In this document: piece after piece, positions 16,878 through 31,653 of the stretch
Numbering within the stretch: the stretch's first letter is position 1
Layout of the letters: every line of letters begins with the position of its first letter
Assembly: GCF_014643535.1 (NCBI RefSeq)
Contig: NZ_BMJQ01000028.1
Coordinates: 1-64,000 of the forward strand
Source: Aliidongia dinghuensis
Lineage (GTDB): Bacteria > Pseudomonadota > Alphaproteobacteria > ATCC43930 > CGMCC-115725
DNA: 64,000 bases
Direction of reading: 5' to 3'
Made by a program: the position numbers and the translations under genes
Notes under the pieces: model-generated
What the model was told of the DNA's origin: nothing
Seen by the model: only the letters and a program-made list of their open reading frames with translations
Database searches by the model: none

Positions 16878-17720
16878 CTACGGCTGCTGCTCGGGCAGCG
16901 CGGGTGGTTCGGTCGCAGGCGTCGCCGGATGATCGGCGACCTTGCCCTCGCGGCCCTCTTCGACGAATGCCGCCCGGTGCTGGGCCATCAGGCTGCGGAG
17001 GGTTGCGTAATAGTCGAGGGAACTGCGCTCAAGGGAATCGGTCTCCGGCAGCAGCTCGGCCCTGCCGTCGACGACGCCGAGCGCACCGCCCGCGAGGTTG
17101 ATGTCGGACACGGTGCTGCTCGAAATCTGGCTGAGCGGGCTCGCGACGATGCTGGCGACCTGGCCGACCGTGTCACGCACGTTCGACGGGCCGAGCAGCG
17201 GCAATTGCACGGCGGGGCCCGGCCCGATGCCCCAGACGCCGAAGGTCTGGCCGAAATCCGCTGCGTGGCCGGGCAGGCCCCAGTCGGTCGCGACGTCGAA
17301 CAGGCCGGCGCCGCCGAGCGTCGTGTCGAGGACGAAGCGTTGGCCCGTGACCGAGGCGCGGCTGAGATTGCCCTGGAGCAGGTCATTCACCAGCACTTCC
17401 GGCTCATGCAGGTTGGCGACGAAATTGTGCAGGCCGCGGCGGGCGCGCTCGGGCACGTCGTCGAGGTAAGCCTGGGCCGTCGGCTTCAGCACGTGACGGT
17501 CGAGGAACTGGTTGCCGGCGAAGATCGCGCGGTTGACGGATTCGGCCGGATCGTTCGGTTCGTCCGCCAAAGCAGTGTCGCTTGGCGACGGCCTATCGGC
17601 GCAAGCGGCGAGAGTGAGCAAGCCGGCAACGCTCCAGGCGCGGAGAACACCGAGCCTGATGCTGCGCCGTTGCTGCCATTGCGGCGGGTATTGGCTGACA
17701 GATAAGGCAATCAATTTCAT
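16878..17720 (-). CDS. mlaA: MlaA-family outer-membrane lipid asymmetry lipoprotein
   Basis: A 280-residue lipoprotein with a lipobox (LLTLAACADRP, Cys about 40) and the MlaA/VacJ core: NDPAESVNRAIFAGNQFLD, HNFVANLHEPEVLVNDLLQGN, TTLGGAGLFDVATDWGLPGH, DFGQTFGVWGIGPGPAVQLPLLGPSNVRDTVGQ. MlaA removes mislocalised phospholipids from the outer leaflet and passes them to MlaC. No mlaFEDB genes are nearby; an MlaC-like protein is 28 kb away. It is divergent from an OmpR/EnvZ-like pair with repeated motifs in between. No Shine-Dalgarno sequence is evident before ATG 17720, which is preceded by a 31-bp inverted repeat. Confidence 0.93.
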   Translation of the reverse strand: MKLIALSVSQYPPQWQQRRSIRLGVLRAWSVAGLLTLAACADRPSPSDTALADEPNDPAESVNRAIFAGNQFLDRHVLKPTAQAYLDDVPERARRGLHNFVANLHEPEVLVNDLLQGNLSRASVTGQRFVLDTTLGGAGLFDVATDWGLPGHAADFGQTFGVWGIGPGPAVQLPLLGPSNVRDTVGQVASIVASPLSQISSSTVSDINLAGGALGVVDGRAELLPETDSLERSSLDYYATLRSLMAQHRAAFVEEGREGKVADHPATPATEPPALPEQQP

Positions 17721-17724
17721 GGCG

Positions 17725-17755
17725 GTTGCCCATTCCGGTCTCGGGAATTGGCAAC
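17725..17755. repeat. imperfect inverted repeat directly upstream of mlaA
   Basis: GTTGCC at 17725-17730 pairs with GGCAAC at 17750-17755, and ATTCC pairs with GGAAT just inside, with one mismatch between the blocks. It lies 4 bases before the mlaA start codon, in its 5' untranslated region. It could be an operator or an RNA hairpin masking the start; either is inference. Confidence 0.55.
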
Positions 17756-17763
17756 TTAGGTCG

Positions 17764-17793
17764 CGATTCTATCGAGCAGATGTCCGATTCTAT
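17764..17793. promoter_or_regulatory. direct repeat, candidate response-regulator site
   Basis: CGATTCTAT occurs at 17764-17772 and again at 17785-17793, a 21-bp period equal to two helical turns. It lies in the 160-bp space between divergent mlaA and the OmpR-type regulator gene. OmpR-family dimers bind tandem direct repeats, so this is a plausible site for the adjacent regulator. Confidence 0.4.
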
Positions 17794-17880
17794 TCAGCGC
17801 CGACCACATGTGTCAGCCTCGACACAAGACAACGAAATTCAGACATCAAAGTCGCCGAGGTGGTGCGGTATGCTCTGATC

Positions 17881-18606
17881 ATGACCTCAAGCACGCGACT
17901 TCTCATCGTCGACGACGATCCGGACATCCTGTCTTTGTTGACGAAATTCTTCCGCAAACATTCGTTTCTCGTCACGGTCGCCGCCAGTGGCGTGGAAATG
18001 ACCGCGGCGCTCGAACGGAACACGTTCGATCTGGTGATCCTCGATCTCATGCTGCCGGGCGAAGATGGGCTCACCCTGTGCCGGCGGCTGCAGCAGAGCC
18101 ACCGCGTGCCGGTCATCATGCTGACGGCGATGAGCGAGCTTACCGACCGTATCGTCGGGCTCGAAGTCGGTGCCGATGATTATGTGGCGAAGCCGTTCGA
18201 CGCCCGCGAGCTGCTGGCTCGCGTCAAGGCGGTCCTGCGACGAGCCGCAGCACCGGTGCCCCCGGCGGAGAGCATGGCGACCCGCCCGGTGTGGCGCTTC
18301 GCCGGCTGGCGACTGGATCTGGCGCGCCGCGAGCTTCGCTCGGAGCAAAACGACATTCTCATTCCGCTGACCAGCGGAGAGTTCGAGCTGCTGCTGGCGT
18401 TCGTCGAGCATGCCCAGCGCGTGCTGACGCGCGATCAATTGCTGGATCTCGCGCATGGTTCGTCCCACGAAGCCTATGATCGCAGCATCGACCTGCAGGT
18501 GAGCCGCCTTCGCCGCAAACTTGAATCGGATGCCCGCAGTCCCTCGCTCATTCGGACGGTCCGCAACGGCGGCTACATGTTCACGCCGGAGGTCGAACGG
18601 GGATGA
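17881..18606 (+). CDS. OmpR/PhoB-family response regulator
   Basis: A 241-residue two-domain regulator. The receiver domain has the acidic pair in IVDDDPDI, phosphoacceptor Asp55 in LVILDLMLPGEDG and Lys in VAKPFDARELLARVKAVLRR. The C-terminal winged-helix trans_reg_C domain includes LTSGEFELLLAFVEHAQRVLTRDQLLDL and DLQVSRLRRKLE...IRTVRNGGYMF. It overlaps the histidine kinase gene by 4 bases (ATGA). Position opposite mlaA and the mipA-like gene suggests these envelope genes are its targets. Confidence 0.93.
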   Translation: MTSSTRLLIVDDDPDILSLLTKFFRKHSFLVTVAASGVEMTAALERNTFDLVILDLMLPGEDGLTLCRRLQQSHRVPVIMLTAMSELTDRIVGLEVGADDYVAKPFDARELLARVKAVLRRAAAPVPPAESMATRPVWRFAGWRLDLARRELRSEQNDILIPLTSGEFELLLAFVEHAQRVLTRDQLLDLAHGSSHEAYDRSIDLQVSRLRRKLESDARSPSLIRTVRNGGYMFTPEVERG

Positions 18607-19976
18607 CGTTGCCGTTCGGCATCCGCGACACGCTCGCGCGGCGGCTCTCTCTCACCATCATGCTGGCCGTCGCAGGCACGCTGGCGCTCAACCTGCTGCT
18701 GAACCTGCTGCTCGGCAACCTTGGCCGGCCGCCGCTCGACCGGAGCGGCCTGCTCGAACAGGCCGCCAGCATCTTTCGGATGATCCAGGCAGCACCGGTA
18801 TCGCTCCGGCCGGCGCTCACCACGGCCGCGGCGACATCGGCGTACCAGGTCGACTGGTACGAAAGCGCGTCGCCGGTATCGGCGATGCTGCGCACTGGAG
18901 CGAGCGCGCCTGAATCCGAGTGGGCGGAGGTAGCAGCCAACCTGATCGGCGTCCCCGATCGTCGGATCGTGATCTTCAGGGCCGACGATCCGGAAGCCGT
19001 CACGCCTGGCTTGCACTACGGCCGGGCCAGCGATCCGGGTGCCTATTTCCTGGGGATCGTGCTCGACGACCAGAGTTCGCTCGTCTTCACCGCCCTGCAC
19101 AGGAGTTGGGGCATGAGGCGAAAGGACCGGATCATCATCATTTGCGCCATCCTGGCGGCGTCGACGATCGCCGTCTCGGCGATCGTTGGGCGACAGCTCG
19201 CTGCGCCGATGAAGCGCTTCGCCGCTGCGGCGCGGCGCTTCGGCACGGATCCCAAGGCGCCGCCACTCGCCGAGGCGGGGCCGGCCGAGTTTCGCACGGC
19301 GATTGGCGCGTTCAACGCCATGCAGGCCCAGATCGCGCGCTTCGTCAGCGACCGGACGGAGATGCTGGCGGCGATTTCCCATGATCTGCGTACGCCGCTG
19401 ACCCGGATGCGGTTGCGCGGGGAATTCATCGAAGACGAGGAGCAGCAGCGGCGTCTGTTCCAGGACGTCGACGAAATGCAGACCATGATCGACGAAGTGC
19501 TGGCGTTCTTCAGGGACAATGCATCCGAGGAGCGGTCGACGAATTTCGATCTGGCCGAGCTGCTACGGACCATCATCGACGACTTCGCCGATCAGGGGCT
19601 GGAGGTTCCTTATGACGGACCGGGCCATGTCGTCTATTTCGGCCGGCCTTTCGCGTTGAAACGCGCCTTTACGAACCTGATCGACAATGCGGTGCGCTAC
19701 GCAACCGCCCCGTCGGTCGAACTTCACCAGGCCGCCCAATCCCTCGTCGTCAGCGTGATCGACCAAGGGTGCGGCATTCCGCCGGATCAGCTGACCAAGG
19801 TCTTCGCCCCCTTCTATCGCCTGGAGCCCTCCCGCAACCGCTCGACCGGCGGCTACGGCCTGGGGTTGAGCGCGGCGCGTACGATCATCCGCGGCCATGG
19901 CGGCGATCTTGAGCTGCGCAACCGAGCAACCGGCGGGTTGGCTGCGATCTCGACCCTGCCGCAGCATGCCGCCTAG
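18603..19976 (+). CDS. EnvZ-like membrane sensor histidine kinase
   Basis: A 457-residue kinase. It has transmembrane segments at about 15-37 and 176-196 around a periplasmic sensor of about 135 residues. A HAMP segment and a HisKA domain follow, with His260 in AAISHDLRTPLTRMRLR. The HATPase domain (NLIDNAVRYA, DQGCGIPP, GYGLGLSAARTIIRGHGG) completes it. Translationally coupled to the preceding regulator and almost certainly its cognate kinase. The sensed signal is not evident. Confidence 0.93.
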   Translation: MTLPFGIRDTLARRLSLTIMLAVAGTLALNLLLNLLLGNLGRPPLDRSGLLEQAASIFRMIQAAPVSLRPALTTAAATSAYQVDWYESASPVSAMLRTGASAPESEWAEVAANLIGVPDRRIVIFRADDPEAVTPGLHYGRASDPGAYFLGIVLDDQSSLVFTALHRSWGMRRKDRIIIICAILAASTIAVSAIVGRQLAAPMKRFAAAARRFGTDPKAPPLAEAGPAEFRTAIGAFNAMQAQIARFVSDRTEMLAAISHDLRTPLTRMRLRGEFIEDEEQQRRLFQDVDEMQTMIDEVLAFFRDNASEERSTNFDLAELLRTIIDDFADQGLEVPYDGPGHVVYFGRPFALKRAFTNLIDNAVRYATAPSVELHQAAQSLVVSVIDQGCGIPPDQLTKVFAPFYRLEPSRNRSTGGYGLGLSAARTIIRGHGGDLELRNRATGGLAAISTLPQHAA

Positions 19977-22256: not shown

Positions 22257-22358
22257 TCGGTCAGCCCGCTGATGCGGGTGGGCCACCGACAAGCTGTGCG
22301 CGCATCAGGTCCGGTTAGACCGCGGCGCGATAAATCAGCGGCTTTGAAGGGTGCTGCC

Positions 22359-23063
22359 ATGTCCAGAATGTCCCGGTATGTGGTAATCGGCGTTCTGACC
22401 GCGGTCGCGGCGGCCGCCTCGACCCATCGCCCCAACATCCTCTTCGGAACGGCGCCTGCCTTTGCGCATGGTGGTGGCGGCGACGGTGGTGGCGGAGGGG
22501 GCGGAGGCGGAGGTGGTGGCGCCGGCGGCGGTGGAAATGGCGGCGGTGGAAACGGTGGCGACCACGGTGGCGGTGATGGCCATGGTGGCGGCGACGGACA
22601 TGGTGGTGGCGAGGGGCATGGTGGCGAGGGCCGTGGCGGCGGGATTGGCATAGACGCCGACGGGGGCCATGGTCGCGGCATCGGCGAAGCCGATCATGCC
22701 GATGGGCATGGTCTCGGCGGCCACGGTCCCAATGGCCATGGTTTAGGCGCGACCGCCTCGTCGCTCGGTGCGCTCAATGCGGCTCATGCCTCGCATACGG
22801 CGATGGCGCACGCGGCACCAGGGTCCGAGGTCGGCAAGATCGCGGCCTACGCGAACGCCATCAATGCCGTCAACACAGCGAGAACGGTGGCCGAGCGTGA
22901 TCAGGCGATCACGAATGCGGCGGCGGCATTGGCAGCGGCTTCGAACAAGGGCATCTCGACCACGACCGTGAACGCGGTCAACGATCGGCTCGGCATCAGT
23001 GTTGCCCCCGCGGCGGCAATCGCTATCGCCGGCCAGGCATCGGCGATACAGACAGGACGATGA
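22359..23063 (+). CDS. exported Gly/His-rich repeat protein
   Basis: A 234-residue protein with a signal peptide (about 1-36, ending APAFA). The mature part starts with a poly-Gly run and imperfect repeats of the type GGGDGHGGGDGHGGGEGHGGEG, then GHG-containing spacers, then a helical Ala-rich domain (YANAINAVNTARTVAERDQAITNAAAALAAASNKG). The Gly/His region is low complexity and could bind metal or form an extended coat. GAAGGG at 22346-22351 precedes ATG 22359. Function is unknown. Confidence 0.6.
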   Translation: MSRMSRYVVIGVLTAVAAAASTHRPNILFGTAPAFAHGGGGDGGGGGGGGGGGGAGGGGNGGGGNGGDHGGGDGHGGGDGHGGGEGHGGEGRGGGIGIDADGGHGRGIGEADHADGHGLGGHGPNGHGLGATASSLGALNAAHASHTAMAHAAPGSEVGKIAAYANAINAVNTARTVAERDQAITNAAAALAAASNKGISTTTVNAVNDRLGISVAPAAAIAIAGQASAIQTGR

Positions 23064-23587: not shown

Positions 23588-24187
23588 TCAGCCGCGGGGC
23601 GGCGCCTCGCCGCGGGCTTGCAGCCCGTCGACGAACACGTCGACCATGCGCAGCACGCCCGATTGCCAGCCGGGCCGGTCGTGCATGTAGCAGATGCCGA
23701 CGAATGTCCGGAGCAGGTCCTCGGGGCTGATGTCGGCCCGGATCTCGCCGGCGGCGATCGCCCGGTCCAACAGCATGCCGACGGCCTTGGTCAGACGGTC
23801 GAAGGAATAGGCGGTAAGTTCCGAGGGCTTGTGCGCAGCCAGCGCTAATGCCGCGGACATGCCCTTCTTCGTGGCGATGAACTCGACGTTCGATCTCAGC
23901 CAGCGGCGCAGGGCGTCCGTCGGCCCGGCTTCCGCTTTCAGTTGCTCGGCGAGCTCGGCCAGATGGTCGACCTCGCGCCGGTAGACGGCTTCAAAGAGCG
24001 CCTCGCGGGTCGGGAAATGCCGGTAGAGCGTACCGATGCCGACGCCGGCGTGACGGGCGACGGCCTCGAGGCTCGCTTCCGGGCCGCCGGTGCTGAAGAC
24101 GGCCTTCGCGGCTTCCAGCACGCGTTCGCGATTACGCACGGCATCGGCCCGCGGTTTCCGGGCGCTTTCTGCGGATGGGGTGCCCAT
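23588..24187 (-). CDS. TetR/AcrR-family transcriptional regulator
   Basis: A 199-residue TetR-type repressor. The N-terminal DNA-binding domain is clear (ADAVRNRERVLEAAKAVFSTGG, then VARHAGVGIGTLYRHFPTREALFEAVYRREV). The ligand domain includes LDRAIAAGEIRADISPEDLLRTFVGICY, seen in regulators of the TetR_C group. It is divergent from the aldehyde oxidoreductase operon, with a perfect 17-bp palindrome in the shared intergenic region, so it most likely represses that operon, with an aldehyde or related compound as inducer. Confidence 0.9.
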   Translation of the reverse strand: MGTPSAESARKPRADAVRNRERVLEAAKAVFSTGGPEASLEAVARHAGVGIGTLYRHFPTREALFEAVYRREVDHLAELAEQLKAEAGPTDALRRWLRSNVEFIATKKGMSAALALAAHKPSELTAYSFDRLTKAVGMLLDRAIAAGEIRADISPEDLLRTFVGICYMHDRPGWQSGVLRMVDVFVDGLQARGEAPPRG

Positions 24188-24212: not shown

Positions 24213-24241
24213 TTGAAAAACGGAGGGATCCTCCGTATAAA
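24213..24241 (+). promoter_or_regulatory. sigma-70-type promoter for the molybdo-oxidoreductase operon
   Basis: TTGAAA (24213-24218) and TATAAA (24236-24241) are separated by exactly 17 bases, a near-consensus housekeeping promoter. The TetR-type palindrome fills the spacer, so repressor binding would exclude RNA polymerase. Confidence 0.7.
24220..24236. promoter_or_regulatory. TetR-type operator palindrome
   Basis: ACGGAGG-GAT-CCTCCGT is a perfect 7-bp inverted repeat with a 3-base centre, of the ACGGA...TCCGT kind used by many TetR-family repressors. It is 33 bases from the TetR start codon and lies within the promoter of the divergent operon. Confidence 0.8.
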
Positions 24242-24410
24242 TAATGCGATGGCGCACCCCGCGCCAGTGCCGGTCCACCCGGACGGTACCGTCGCGTTCA
24301 GCGCCCGACTTTCGACCTTTCATCGCCGCGGCCTCGGCCGCAAGGGCTTAGCATCCGTCGTGCCCGACGGTCGCGAGCCGTTTTGACCATAGCACTGATC
24401 GGAGCATCCG

Positions 24411-24908
24411 ATGACACTCCCCATCAGTCTCACCATCAATGGGGTGAGGCGGACCATCGCGCTCGACGACCCGCGCGTGACGCTGCTCGATCTCCTGCGC
24501 GAGCGCCTCGACTTGACCGGCACCAAGAAGGGCTGCGACCGCGGCCAATGCGGCGCCTGCACGGTGCTGGTCGACGGCCGGCGGATCAATTCCTGCCTGG
24601 CGCTGGCGGTGAGCCACGATGGTGCCGACATTCTCACGATCGAAGGCCTCGCCCGGGGCGACGAGCTTCATCCGGTGCAGGCGGCCTTCATTGCCCATGA
24701 CGGCTTCCAATGCGGCTTCTGTACGCCCGGGCAGATCATGAGCGCGGTCGGCCTGATCCGCGAAGGACAAGCCGGTGCCGACCCCGAGCGCGTGCGCGAA
24801 GGCATGAGCGGCAATCTCTGTCGCTGCGGCGCCTATGCCGGCATCACCGAAGCCGTGCTGGAGGCTGAGGAGCAGTTGACGCTAGCCGAACGGAGGGCCG
24901 CGGAATGA
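24411..24908 (+). CDS. paoA: aldehyde oxidoreductase [2Fe-2S] subunit (PaoA/YagT-like)
   Basis: A 165-residue iron-sulfur subunit of a xanthine-oxidase-family molybdenum enzyme. Both 2Fe-2S sites are intact: plant-ferredoxin type GCDRGQCGACTVLVDGRRINSC and the C-terminal QCGFCTPGQ...NLCRCGAY. It passes electrons from the molybdenum centre to the FAD subunit. Unlike E. coli PaoA it begins directly at the ferredoxin fold (MTLPISLTINGVRR) with no twin-arginine signal, so the complex is predicted to be cytoplasmic. It overlaps paoB by 4 bases (ATGA). Confidence 0.9.
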   Translation: MTLPISLTINGVRRTIALDDPRVTLLDLLRERLDLTGTKKGCDRGQCGACTVLVDGRRINSCLALAVSHDGADILTIEGLARGDELHPVQAAFIAHDGFQCGFCTPGQIMSAVGLIREGQAGADPERVREGMSGNLCRCGAYAGITEAVLEAEEQLTLAERRAAE

Positions 24909-25963
24909 ACCGCTTCGACTATGTGAGGCCCGCGACGGTCGCCGAAGCGGTCGTGGCGGCTGCCGAGCCGGGTGCGGCCTATCTCGCAGCCGGCACCAAT
25001 CTCCTCGACCTGATGAAGGGCGGGATCAGCCGGCCGGGCCGCCTCGTCGACATCACGCGTCTGCCGGGCCTCAACCAGGTCGAGCGCTTGCCCGACGGGG
25101 CCTTGCGCATCGGCGCCCTCGTGCGCAATGCCGATCTCGCCCACGACCCGGACTTCGCGCGCGCCTATCCGGCCGTTGCGGAGGCGCTGCTGGCCGGCGC
25201 CTCGGCGCAGCTCCGGAACGCCGCCACGGTCGGCGGAAATCTGCTGCAGCGGACGCGCTGTGCCTATTTCTACGATCCCGCCAGCGCCTGCAACAAGCGG
25301 CAGCCGGGCAGCGGCTGCGACGCGCGGGACGGCGAAAACCGGCTGAGTGCCGTGCTCGGCTGGAGCGACGCCTGCATCGCGACCCACCCGTCCGATTTCT
25401 GCGTGCCGCTGGTCGCACTCGACGCCACCGTGGAAATCGAGGGCCGTGCGGGCCGCCGCGAGATCGCACTCGACGCGCTTCACCGCCTGCCCGGTGATGC
25501 GCCGGAGCGGGACAATGTGCTCGAGCCGGGCGATCTCATCACCGCCGTCCGCTTGCCGGCCGCGGCGGCCGCCTTCGCCGCCCATGCGCGGTATCTCAAG
25601 CTCCGCGAACGCACCTCCTATGCCTTCGCCGTCGTGTCGGCCGCTGCGGCGCTCAAGATCGAGGACGGCACGATCCGGGAGGCACGCCTGGCACTCGGCG
25701 GCGTTGCCGCGAAGCCGTGGCGCGCCCGCGCGGCAGAACAGGTCCTGGCCGGCGGCACACCGACGCCGGAAGCGTTCCGCCAGGCCGCCGAGGCGGCGCT
25801 CGCCGATGCGCGGCCATCCGGCGACAACGCCGCCAAGATCGAGCTTGCGCGGCGGATCGCCGTCCGGGCGCTCGCCCTCGCCGCGGCGGGCACGCCGGAC
25901 CGTATCCCGGCCCTGCCGGGTTCTTGCTTCTCTTCCGTCCCTGGAGCGCTCCATGCCGTCTGA
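24905..25963 (+). CDS. paoB: aldehyde oxidoreductase FAD subunit with extra Fe-S segment (PaoB/YagS-like)
   Basis: A 352-residue FAD subunit of the xanthine-oxidase family. The FAD-binding region includes YLAAGTNLLDLMKGG and ASAQLRNAATVGGNLLQRTRC. It also has the Cys-rich insertion (CAYFYDPASACNKRQPGSGC ... CIATHPSDFC) that in E. coli PaoB binds an additional [4Fe-4S] cluster, placing this enzyme in the PaoABC group and not with plain xanthine dehydrogenases. The stop overlaps the start of the large subunit by 11 bases, indicating tight translational coupling. Confidence 0.9.
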   Translation: MNRFDYVRPATVAEAVVAAAEPGAAYLAAGTNLLDLMKGGISRPGRLVDITRLPGLNQVERLPDGALRIGALVRNADLAHDPDFARAYPAVAEALLAGASAQLRNAATVGGNLLQRTRCAYFYDPASACNKRQPGSGCDARDGENRLSAVLGWSDACIATHPSDFCVPLVALDATVEIEGRAGRREIALDALHRLPGDAPERDNVLEPGDLITAVRLPAAAAAFAAHARYLKLRERTSYAFAVVSAAAALKIEDGTIREARLALGGVAAKPWRARAAEQVLAGGTPTPEAFRQAAEAALADARPSGDNAAKIELARRIAVRALALAAAGTPDRIPALPGSCFSSVPGALHAV

Positions 25964-28223
25964 CATCAGCCTCACCCCGGCATCGCCCCACGTGCGGCAC
26001 GGCTCGAACATCGGGCAGCCGCTGACCCGCCGCGACGGGATCCTGAAGGTCACCGGCCAGGCCCGATACGCCGCGGACAATCACCCCGCCGGCATGCTGC
26101 ACGCCGTGCTGGCGGTGAGCCACATCGCGCGCGGCCGCGTCGTTTCGCTGGACGTCGTGGCGGCCAAGGCCCATCCGGGCGTCGTCGAGGTCATGACGCC
26201 GGCCAACCGGCCGCCGCTTGCGGAGGATCCGGACGCCAAGACGAACCCATTCATGTTCCGGCTCGATCTGCTGCAGAACGACCGCGTGCGCTACGTCAGT
26301 CAGCCGATCGCCGTCGTCATCGCGGAAACGCTGGAGGCCGCGACGGAGGGCGCGGCGCTGCTGGCGCCGCAATACGAAGCCGAGCCGGCCCGGATCGGCC
26401 TCGATGCGGACGAAAGCTTCGTGCCGCCGGCGGTCGGCGTCGGCCATCCGGCGGAGGTGCGGCATGGCGATGTCGAGCAAGGGCTCGACGCGGCCGTGCA
26501 TCGGATCGAGGTGACCTACGAGACGCCCGCCCAATACCACAACGCCATGGAGCCGCATGCGATCGTGGCGGCGTGGGACGGCGATGCGCTCACGATCGAC
26601 ACGCCGACCCAGGGGCTTGCCATGGCGCAGGCGCGGATCGCCGGGCTCCTCGGCATCGCGCCCGGCAAGATCCATATCCGCAGCCCGTTCCTCGGCGGCG
26701 GCTTTGGTGCCAAGGGCCTGATCGCCGGGCCGCAGATCCTCGGCATCCTGGCGGCCCAGCTGGTCGGCCGGCCGGTCAAGCTGGTGATGCGGCGTGAGCA
26801 GCTCTCAGGGCCCGTCGGGCATCGCTCGCCGAGCCGGCAGACGATGCGGCTCGGCACCGACGCCGAGGGCGCGCTGACCGCGCTCAGCCACCAGGCCAAG
26901 ATCGCGACCAGCAGCTTCGACGATTTCTTCGAGCCCGCGGCCGGCGCCTCGCATGCGCTTTATGCGAGCCCGGCGATCGTCACCCAGCACGAGGCAGTCC
27001 GGCTCGACACCGGCACGCCGCTGTTCATGCGCGCGCCCGGCGAGGCGACGGGATCGATCGCGCTCGAAAGCGCCATCGACGAAGCGGCTTGGGCCTGCGG
27101 CATGGACCCGCTGGCCTTCCGCTTGAAGAACTATGCCGAGGTCGAACCGATCTCGGGCAAGCCCTTCTCCTCCAAGGCGCTCCGCGAGTGCTACACTGAA
27201 GGGGCCGTGCGTTTCGGCTGGTGGGAACGCCGGCTCGAGCCCCGGCAGATGCGCGACGCGGCCGGACTGCTGGTCGGCTGGGGCGTCGGCACCGCCACCT
27301 TCCCGGCGCTCATGTTCCAGGGCGAGGCCCGCGCCGTGATCCGCCGCGACGGGACGGGTGTCATGGAGACGGGCGCGCACGACATGGGCCAGGGTGCCTG
27401 GACGGCGCTCGCCCAGATCGCGGCCGATGCGCTCGGGCTCGAGCTCGACCAGGTCGCGTTCCGGGCGGGCACCTCGGACCTGCCGGATGCCGGCATTGCC
27501 GGCGGCTCGGCCCATACCGCGACCGCCGGCATGGCGCTCCACAATGCCGGGGCTGCGGTCATCGCCAAGCTGGCGGACCTTGCCACGGGCGACGAGCGCT
27601 CGCCGCTGTTCGGTGCCGGCAATGCCGGCGTCATGGCACGCGGCGGTCGGCTCCACCGCCGCGACGACGAAAGCCGCAGCGAGAGCTATGCCGAGGTCCT
27701 GGACCGCGCCGGGCTCGCTGAGATCGAGGCGCGCGGCCAGGGTACCGCGGACCCGGTCCTGCAACAGCACTATGCGATGCACGCCCACGGTGCGGTCTTC
27801 GCCGAGGTCAAGGTCGATCCGGAGCTGGGCCAGATCCGCGCCACGCGCCTCATCGGCGCTTTCGCGGCCGGCCGGATCATCAATCCCCGCATGGTGCAGA
27901 GCCAGTATCTGGGCGGCATGATCTGGGGCGTGTCCTTCGCGCTGCACGAGGAGGCCATTGCCGACCGGCGCTCCGGCCGGATCCTGAACGCGAACCTGGC
28001 CGAGTATCACATTCCGGTAAATGCCGATGTGCCGTCGCTCGAGGCTGTGCTCGTCGACGAGCACGACCCCCATGTGAATGCGCTCGGCATCAAGGGTGTC
28101 GGCGAGATCGGCATCACCGGCTCGGCCGGTGCCATCGCCAATGCGGTCTGGCACGCGACCGGCATCCGGCCGCGCCGCTTCCCGATCCGGATCGACGACC
28201 TCTTGGCGCAAGAGACCCCGTAG
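25953..28223 (+). CDS. paoC: aldehyde oxidoreductase molybdopterin-binding subunit (PaoC/YagR-like)
   Basis: A 756-residue molybdenum-cofactor subunit. It has the N-terminal a/b hammerhead (LTRRDGILKVTGQARYAADN), the cofactor loops (PFLGGGFGAKG, MRAPGEATGSIALESAIDE, AHDMGQGAWTALAQIAAD, GGSAHTATAG) and the active-site Glu in GIKGVGEIGITG. Such enzymes hydroxylate aldehydes, often aromatic, to carboxylic acids. ATG 25953 is supported by GGAG upstream and by overlap with paoB. The dedicated cofactor-insertion chaperone (PaoD/XdhC) is not in the window, so it must be supplied from elsewhere. Confidence 0.92.
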   Translation: MPSDISLTPASPHVRHGSNIGQPLTRRDGILKVTGQARYAADNHPAGMLHAVLAVSHIARGRVVSLDVVAAKAHPGVVEVMTPANRPPLAEDPDAKTNPFMFRLDLLQNDRVRYVSQPIAVVIAETLEAATEGAALLAPQYEAEPARIGLDADESFVPPAVGVGHPAEVRHGDVEQGLDAAVHRIEVTYETPAQYHNAMEPHAIVAAWDGDALTIDTPTQGLAMAQARIAGLLGIAPGKIHIRSPFLGGGFGAKGLIAGPQILGILAAQLVGRPVKLVMRREQLSGPVGHRSPSRQTMRLGTDAEGALTALSHQAKIATSSFDDFFEPAAGASHALYASPAIVTQHEAVRLDTGTPLFMRAPGEATGSIALESAIDEAAWACGMDPLAFRLKNYAEVEPISGKPFSSKALRECYTEGAVRFGWWERRLEPRQMRDAAGLLVGWGVGTATFPALMFQGEARAVIRRDGTGVMETGAHDMGQGAWTALAQIAADALGLELDQVAFRAGTSDLPDAGIAGGSAHTATAGMALHNAGAAVIAKLADLATGDERSPLFGAGNAGVMARGGRLHRRDDESRSESYAEVLDRAGLAEIEARGQGTADPVLQQHYAMHAHGAVFAEVKVDPELGQIRATRLIGAFAAGRIINPRMVQSQYLGGMIWGVSFALHEEAIADRRSGRILNANLAEYHIPVNADVPSLEAVLVDEHDPHVNALGIKGVGEIGITGSAGAIANAVWHATGIRPRRFPIRIDDLLAQETP

Positions 28224-30353: not shown

Positions 30354-31037
30354 TCACATCCATCGCCATATGCCGGCGGCCCAACCGGCGAGCGGAAGAT
30401 GCGCCCAGGTCGTCCCGAGCCAGAGCAACGTGCCGGCGATCGTGGCGAATGGGCCAAGGCTTCCGATCTGCGCCCGGCCTGCGATCACCGCCGCGAAGGG
30501 AATGAAGCTGGTGCGGCGCTCCCAGGCCGGCCAGACGTCCGGCTGAGCGCGCTCCTTCTTCGCGTCCTGCAGCCTCGAACCGACCAGGGCCAGCACGACG
30601 ATGGCGATAGCCACGGCGATGTTCTTGTCAACAGGATAGACCGCGATGTGGGCGAGGCCCCATATCGCAAACGACCACATCATCGGATGGCGCGTGATCG
30701 CGTAGACGCCACGCGCGGGACCTGGCTCTGACAACGGCGCGCCGAGGGTCGGAAAAGCGGGATTTTTGACCAGCGACCCGGCGAGAAGGATGGACGCCAG
30801 CAGCATGACCGCGGTGGCGATCGCCCATGTTAAGTCGCCCGCTACCCAATGCGGCTCGGTCGTCGGAGCAGCAAGATAGGCAGCGACCATCCATCCGAGC
30901 GTTGCGAACGCAACGACCGAATACAGGGCGGTGAAGCCCTGCTCGCCGATGGCGTGGACGACCCCCGCCCGAAGCGGATGGGAAAGCAGGAAATGCGTTC
31001 CGACGAATGCGACGGCCGCGATGATCAGCATGGCCAT
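30354..31037 (-). CDS. NnrU family membrane protein
   Basis: A 227-residue membrane protein with about six hydrophobic helices, matching the NnrU/isoprenylcysteine-methyltransferase-like pattern: THFLLSHPLRAGVVHAIGEQGFTALYSVVAFATLGWMV at the start and GVYAITRHPMMWSFAIWGLAHI in the middle. NnrU was named from denitrification clusters, but many homologues lie elsewhere, and no nitrate or nitrite genes are here. ATG 31037 fits the family start; the frame is open to 31160 but crosses the TetR operator. Divergent from a TetR gene that probably controls it. Confidence 0.82.
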   Translation of the reverse strand: MAMLIIAAVAFVGTHFLLSHPLRAGVVHAIGEQGFTALYSVVAFATLGWMVAAYLAAPTTEPHWVAGDLTWAIATAVMLLASILLAGSLVKNPAFPTLGAPLSEPGPARGVYAITRHPMMWSFAIWGLAHIAVYPVDKNIAVAIAIVVLALVGSRLQDAKKERAQPDVWPAWERRTSFIPFAAVIAGRAQIGSLGPFATIAGTLLWLGTTWAHLPLAGWAAGIWRWM

Positions 31038-31079
31038 GGTCGATCGGTTCCCACCTATTTGAAGATGTGATACTACGTT

Positions 31080-31094
31080 GTTTACAGTGTAAAC
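31080..31094. promoter_or_regulatory. perfect TetR-type palindrome between nnrU-like gene and tetR
   Basis: GTTTACA-G-TGTAAAC is a perfect 7-bp inverted repeat around one central base. It lies 13 bases before the TetR GTG start and 42 bases before the divergent NnrU-like start, a natural autoregulatory operator. TTTACA...TGTAAA sites are common for TetR-family repressors. Confidence 0.8.
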
Positions 31095-31107
31095 GGAGCG
31101 TTGCCAA

Positions 31108-31653
31108 GTGACTTCAGAAGCCGGCCTTCGAGAGACGTTGATTGCTGCCGCCCTTGGCATCCTGGAAGCGGGTGGGGAGGAGCCCAGCCTCCGGGCAGTG
31201 GCGCGGGCGGCCGGTGTGTCGGCGATGGCGCCCTACCGACACTTCTCGAACAAGGTCGCTCTGATGGCGGCTGTTGCGAACCATGGGTTCGAGGCTCTGC
31301 GAGACGCCCTGGTGGCTGCCGACGACAAGCCCGATCCCCGGGAGGCCCTTGTCGCGCAGGGACTGGCCTTCATCGATTTCGCGACGAACCATCCGGCTCT
31401 GTTCCGGCTGATGTACAGCCATCAATACGGCAGCGCGGGCGCGGATGCGGTGCTGGGAACCTACCAGGTGCTCGCCGACCGGATGGTCGACGTCATGCCG
31501 ACCCAGGCTTCCGCCGGTGCGCTTGCCTGCAGAGCACTCGTCCAGGGTATCGCCACGATTGTACTGAATGACAGGCTCGCGCCGTCGAAGGCGGACGACA
31601 TAGCTACCGCATTGCGGCTCTTCGTCTACGGGGTGGCGCACGCCGCCCGATGA
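31108..31653 (+). CDS. TetR/AcrR-family regulator, WHG-domain type
   Basis: A 181-residue TetR-family protein. DNA-binding domain: TLIAAALGILEAGGEEPSLRAVARAAGVSAMAPYRHFSNKVALMAAVANHGF. The C-terminal domain (GLAFIDFATNHPALFRLMYSHQYG) carries the features of the WHG-type (TetR_C_13) ligand domain. The start is GTG 31108 with GGAG at 31095-31098. A perfect palindrome just upstream is its likely own operator and also faces the NnrU-like gene. Confidence 0.9.
   Translation: MTSEAGLRETLIAAALGILEAGGEEPSLRAVARAAGVSAMAPYRHFSNKVALMAAVANHGFEALRDALVAADDKPDPREALVAQGLAFIDFATNHPALFRLMYSHQYGSAGADAVLGTYQVLADRMVDVMPTQASAGALACRALVQGIATIVLNDRLAPSKADDIATALRLFVYGVAHAAR

Follow-up and report, generated by a model that had tools for sequence, protein, structure and literature searches.

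The stretch of DNA analyzed here, referred to below as the window (64,000 nt), carries a gene for a TetR-family repressor of 199 aa on the minus strand (positions 23588-24187) and, facing away from it on the plus strand, a three-gene operon for an aldehyde-oxidase-like enzyme, with the tetR and paoA start codons separated by 223 nt. A putative promoter for the operon lies in this intergenic region. Its -35 hexamer, TTGAAA (24213-24218, plus strand), and its -10 hexamer, TATAAA (24236-24241, plus strand), each have five of six consensus bases and enclose a spacer of 17 nt (24219-24235, plus strand), which bears out the initial annotation's description of TTGAAA-N17-TATAAA as a near-consensus promoter. 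A promoter scan that requires the -10 hexamer to end in T made no call at 24213-24241. The leader region between the -10 hexamer and paoA (24242-24410, plus strand) includes the inferred start site. At 24220-24236, at a distance of 32 nt from the start of tetR, lies the palindrome ACGGAGG-GAT-CCTCCGT, a candidate operator that is conserved beside TetR homologues. It had been proposed that this palindrome fills the promoter spacer. The 7-3-7 symmetry is indeed perfect, but the fit to the spacer is not exact: the palindrome is shifted one base to the right, and its last base is the first T of the -10 hexamer.

Inspection by eye of the remainder of the window revealed, on the same side as the TetR gene, a frame containing long low-complexity runs rich in Gly and His (22272-23063), as well as tandem response-regulator-like and sensor-kinase-like frames (17512-19976), and a second TetR-like frame (31108-31653) that faces away from, and overlaps, a membrane-protein-like frame (30354-31160). 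Across the 64,000 nt, no RNA element matched Rfam at gathering scores.

The operon consists of a paoA-like gene for an iron-sulfur subunit with Fer2 and Fer2_2 domains and no leader peptide (24411-24908, plus strand), a paoB-like gene for an FAD subunit with a Cys-rich insertion (24905-25963, plus strand), which overlaps paoA by 4 nt, and a paoC-like gene for a molybdopterin subunit (25953-28223, plus strand), whose start was placed at the MPSDIS codon within an open reading frame listed as 25347-28223. The [2Fe-2S], FAD, and molybdopterin domains of the three-subunit xanthine oxidase family are thus all present, and among solved structures the large subunit best matches the bacterial aldehyde oxidase 5y6q (chain C, E = 4.8e-129), followed by E. 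coli PaoABC (5g5h_C, E = 1.3e-117). The three-subunit organization and the domains are shared with both Escherichia coli PaoABC and 5y6q, and the Cys-rich insertion of the medium subunit aligns with 5y6q_B. E. coli PaoABC is periplasmic, its PaoA carries a Tat leader, and it prefers aromatic aldehydes (PMC3958847). The window operon differs from it in several respects. The NCBIfam scores are far below the cut-offs (221.3 bits against 322 for PaoA and 542.5 bits against 1180 for PaoC), and the window PaoA has no Tat leader, its residue 3 lining up with position 51 in the PaoA model. Among seven aligned relatives, five PaoA starts, as chosen by a script, are level with that of the window and two lie four residues earlier. 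In addition, no PaoD/XdhC-type gene lies beside the operon, and the genome's two XdhC_CoxI matches map to contigs C1 and C2, whereas C28 holds the window. Because of the scores below cut-off, the missing PaoA leader, and the missing XdhC/PaoD-type neighbor, the label "paoABC" given by the initial annotation holds for the PaoABC and bacterial aldehyde oxidase group but not for an equivalog of the E. coli enzyme. Judged by its sequence, the enzyme is aldehyde-oxidase-like rather than E. coli PaoABC proper, we use "paoABC" as a group name only, and the predicted location of the window enzyme is likely the cytoplasm.

The repressor contains TetR_N (E = 2.7e-14) and TetR_C_43 (E = 3.7e-18) domains, both above cut-off, and its AlphaFold model is all-helical (mean pLDDT of 87.9), with 2q24 as the closest solved fold. 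Two of its residues, D15 and F58, are invariant across 84 TetR sequences and correspond, judging from the ends of the alignment, to D14 and F57 of MAB_4384 (5ovy), whose D14N and F57L mutants are severely impaired in DNA binding (PMC5895659).

A scan for ACGGAGGNATCCTCCGT using one genome per species returned at least 116 stretches. A TetR homologue (phmmer, E = 7.2e-24 or better, within 250 nt of the site) was present near the site in 56 of the 116 matches listed, and in all 56 the site was upstream of the TetR gene. We found that the flanks of these 56 listed sites resemble a promoter mainly on the divergent strand, where the -35 and -10 hexamers occupy fixed positions and average 8.07 of 12 promoter-consensus bases, compared with 5.11 of 12 when the same sites are scored on the TetR strand and 3.83 of 12 for the 60 listed sites without TetR, each scored on its better strand. 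A score of at least 7 of 12 was reached by 45 of the 56 TetR-linked sites versus 2 of the 60 TetR-free sites among the matches listed; the other 11 TetR-linked sites score only 3 to 6. The dinucleotide AT directly follows the operator on its 3' side in 54 of the 56 (all but L034 and L122). The two high-scoring TetR-free sites (9 and 10 of 12), which we identified by hand as L079 and L128, both precede paoABC, the latter in a locus that ends 64 nt beyond the site. In L079, from Acidisphaera sp. L21, the operator-in-spacer promoter (operator at 800-816) and paoABC are both present, and no TetR was found in the roughly 800 nt of the locus upstream of the site. There, at about 2-760, the gene that takes the place of TetR resembles, by eye, a glutathione S-transferase.

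The converse comparison used 69 loci, the window's own included, that were retrieved by the TetR protein rather than by the motif, and searched 360 nt around and upstream of each TetR start. The site was present with at most two mismatches in 43 of the 69 loci, as opposed to 1 of 69 control segments. Two sister operators were recognized among the same loci, namely ACGGAAC-N3-GTTCCGT (14 loci) and ACGGAGG-N2-CCTCCGT (9 loci). Any one of the three operators occurs with at most three mismatches in 67 of the 69 loci versus 2 of 67 controls, a count that is descriptive given that the two extra forms were recognized in these very loci; the remaining two are L013, which has no upstream sequence, and L170, a miss. 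A TTG positioned for a 17-nt spacer occurs in 50 of the 67 loci with an operator, which divide into 37 of 44 for the window type, 13 of 14 for the ACGGAAC type, and none of 9 for the N2 type, where seven loci have no TTG and two have one at a spacing of 16. Going by these loci, the operator-in-spacer layout is common in the group but not universal.

The repressor has a patchy distribution. Of 39 genomes from the family, 8 have a relative at E = 1e-20; the phylum yields 31 of 398 at E = 1e-30, and the class 5 of 385 at E = 1e-40 or better. Within the window's genus, the sole other genome has a TetR relative that is only 45% identical and lies beside an SDR gene. L012, from the same family as the window, has a variant site, ACGTAGG-N3-CCTACGT, beside a gene that is 38% identical to the MFS reference.

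The operator variants are also distributed along the TetR tree, which comprises 123 rows with 119 different sequences; some TetRs are identical in both locus sets, such that the counts overstate independence. One clade (support 100/99) unites 53 PaoA-linked rows, the window's protein included, with two TetR rows from truncated loci. The operators with a 2-nt spacer correspond to a separate clade (100/98), in which seven of eight rows are PaoA-linked and the PaoA proteins are 63-81% identical to that of the window. All TetRs from the 14 loci of the ACGGAAC type fall in a single clade of 15 rows (100/100), within which four PaoA-linked rows form a clade of their own (100/99), with PaoA proteins 55-57% identical to the window's. 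At TetR positions 20, 41, 62, and 76, no residue is common to the 14 ACGGAAC loci and 98 loci of the window type. The predicted DNA-reading stretch, GxGTLYRHFP, is near-invariant whether the TetR is linked to PaoA, an SDR, or an MFS transporter, and GTLYRHFP varies little except in the ACGGAAC branch, where some rows change L54 and H57. We read this pattern as a correlation along the tree, in which operator variants track TetR branches, rather than as proof of contact. Cys166 is present in 64% of the PaoA-linked, 37% of the MFS-linked, and 6% of the SDR-linked TetRs, and we therefore dismiss it as a general thiol sensor.

The number of operators differs with the divergent gene. Among the 56 TetR-linked loci listed, this gene is paoA in 31, an SDR gene in 13, and an MFS transporter gene in 7, and in the other five it is ambiguous or past the end of the locus. 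The SDR and MFS labels denote similarity to one SDR reference (L108) and two MFS references (L030 and L046), of which L108 and L030 fall short of the NCBIfam cut-off for the model that each matches best. Downstream of paoA, the listed loci carry paoB and paoC wherever the locus is long enough. When a second operator is defined as a match with at most three mismatches within 70 nt (shuffled sequences average 6.2-6.3 mismatches), it is present in 12 of the 13 listed SDR-linked loci, always starting 6-9 nt after the first, and in 6 of the 7 MFS-linked ones (five at 6-7 nt and one at 38 nt); two of the five loci with an ambiguous or missing divergent gene have one as well. In L019, L044, L108, L036, L046, and other SDR or MFS loci, the second operator is less perfect and lies just beyond the -10 box. 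By the same definition, a second operator was found in only one of the 31 listed PaoA-linked loci, at 49 nt, and none was found in the window, where the 70 nt following the operator at 24220-24236 offer nothing closer than a match with 5 mismatches in 14. The single-operator design proposed in the initial annotation is therefore upheld for the window and for 30 of the 31 listed PaoA-linked loci. Judging from these loci, one operator is usual at PaoA promoters and two are usual at SDR and MFS promoters. The distance from the operator to the PaoA start is 62-160 nt in the 31 listed loci and, by the same measure, 175 nt in the window. Inspection by eye of the three longest frames after paoC in 13 named loci showed no generally conserved gene and gave no clue to a pathway; shared frames were limited to close Bradyrhizobium loci (L065/L095 and L065/L093), and one locus had 209 nt left.

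Altogether, these comparisons point to the palindrome as the operator of the TetR encoded at 23588-24187, through which this protein would repress the paoABC-like operon, and we assign this reading a probability of roughly 0.9. The suggestion that the site belongs to the divergent TetR has gained good support from its conservation and from its fixed position and orientation. In the proposed mechanism, the TetR would bind the palindrome at 24220-24236 as a dimer; since the operator fills the space between the -35 and -10 hexamers, the bound dimer would bar RNA polymerase and the operon would be silenced. Given that just 32 nt separate the operator from the tetR start codon, TetR probably also limits its own synthesis. 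A small ligand would then free TetR from the operator. That this ligand is an aldehyde or another of the enzyme's substrates, in line with the induction by substrate or toxic aldehyde suggested in the initial annotation, is no more than a reasonable guess, and TetR relatives also adjoin SDR and MFS genes.

If the palindrome were judged from the window alone, it would barely count as evidence, and weak evidence at that. The window contains 17 perfect 7-3-7 palindromes versus 9.2 expected from simple base composition, and when the 223-nt intergenic region is shuffled with its dinucleotides preserved, 44 of 2000 sequences contain one, a number that rises to 364 of 2000 when 7-nt arms with any gap of 0-8 nt are allowed. 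These numbers are what one would cite for a chance inverted repeat in GC-rich DNA. What makes the operator more than chance is that the same site recurs beside TetR homologues in other genomes, with the same sequence, position, and orientation in the 56 of 116 listed matches and with the enrichment over controls seen in the TetR-retrieved loci, and we consider a fortuitous repeat the most improbable of the explanations weighed here. It is also very improbable, though a little less so, that TetR activates the operon instead of repressing it. A few TetR-family members do activate, among them AtrA, whose activated neighbor is separated from it by an intergenic distance of more than 200 bp (PMC3511530). 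Yet a dimer situated between the -35 and -10 hexamers should obstruct polymerase, and hexamers that are this close to consensus should need no help.

Another explanation, which we regard as unlikely but as the least unlikely of these, is that the site mainly serves another regulator, or a TetR whose gene lies at some other locus, and that the neighboring TetR acts on a different target. The Acidisphaera locus is compatible with this, as it retains operator, promoter, and paoABC with no TetR nearby, and a distant regulator may act there. Elsewhere the site and TetR co-occur in a fixed orientation, which argues against this explanation, as do the tracking of TetR branches by operator variants and the single occurrence of the exact ACGGAGGNNNCCTCCGT in the 7.37-Mb genome. 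At up to two mismatches, the genome contains 36 forward sites, versus 17 for a reversed control pattern, the closest being one perfect site and one with a single mismatch; with such a background among the near matches, we do not claim a regulon beyond paoABC. For the repression reading itself, a mild warning comes by analogy from Streptomyces, where three of four tested TetR-family regulators with a spacing above 200 bp had no action on the divergent gene and the fourth activated it (PMC3511530), the spacing in the window being 223 nt.

We think it somewhat probable that the site belongs to a widespread, undescribed repressor group marked by an operator that serves as the promoter spacer. The predicted outputs of this group would be aldehyde-oxidase-like operons, SDR oxidoreductases, and MFS exporters, the first under one operator and the other two mostly under a pair. 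The group would have joined paoABC-like operons in three separate TetR branches, each with a different operator (ACGGAGG-N3-CCTCCGT, ACGGAGG-N2-CCTCCGT, and ACGGAAC-N3-GTTCCGT). We found no description of an operator of this type in the literature searched, which mostly leaves out subscription journals; an ACGGAGG string in a CprB paper was part of a mutagenesis primer, and another form of the operator string matched a LAMP-assay paper. The comparisons firmly assign an operator to a group of repressors that occurs in Alphaproteobacteria, Actinomycetota, Chloroflexota, and Myxococcota, and they predict how molybdenum-dependent aldehyde-oxidase-like operons are regulated in Bradyrhizobium, Mesorhizobium, and Paracoccaceae. 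In addition, the three natural operator variants and their repressors offer a test of how the protein reads DNA and, once the ligand is identified, could serve as sensors.

A TetR-family dimer that represses by sitting over a promoter is an already known kind of switch, and several characterized regulators can be set beside the one predicted here. The C-terminal Pfam family of the window TetR is described as SbtR-like, after SbtR of Thermus thermophilus. The SbtR consensus TGACTGGCCAGTCA (PMC4948773) is unlike the operators of the window and its relatives, which resemble ACGGAGGNNNCCTCCGT, and this speaks against an SbtR orthologue. The best solved match, both by sequence (E = 8.1e-40) and by fold, is SCO0520 of Streptomyces coelicolor (PDB 2q24), from a different phylum. 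MAB_4384 of Mycobacterium abscessus (PDB 5ovy, E = 1.4e-23) is likewise a divergent repressor acting on a palindrome and has the matching Asp and Phe. Its operator is 27 bp long with 13-nt arms and a 1-nt spacer, and its target is the MmpS5/MmpL5 efflux pump (PMC5895659). The general arrangement is that of TetR/TetA-type pairs, in which a helix-turn-helix repressor and its target are divergent and a palindromic operator lies over the target promoter. The tetR-tetA pair uses two 15-bp operators (PMC3511530), whereas the window has a single 17-bp operator that would itself form the promoter spacer.
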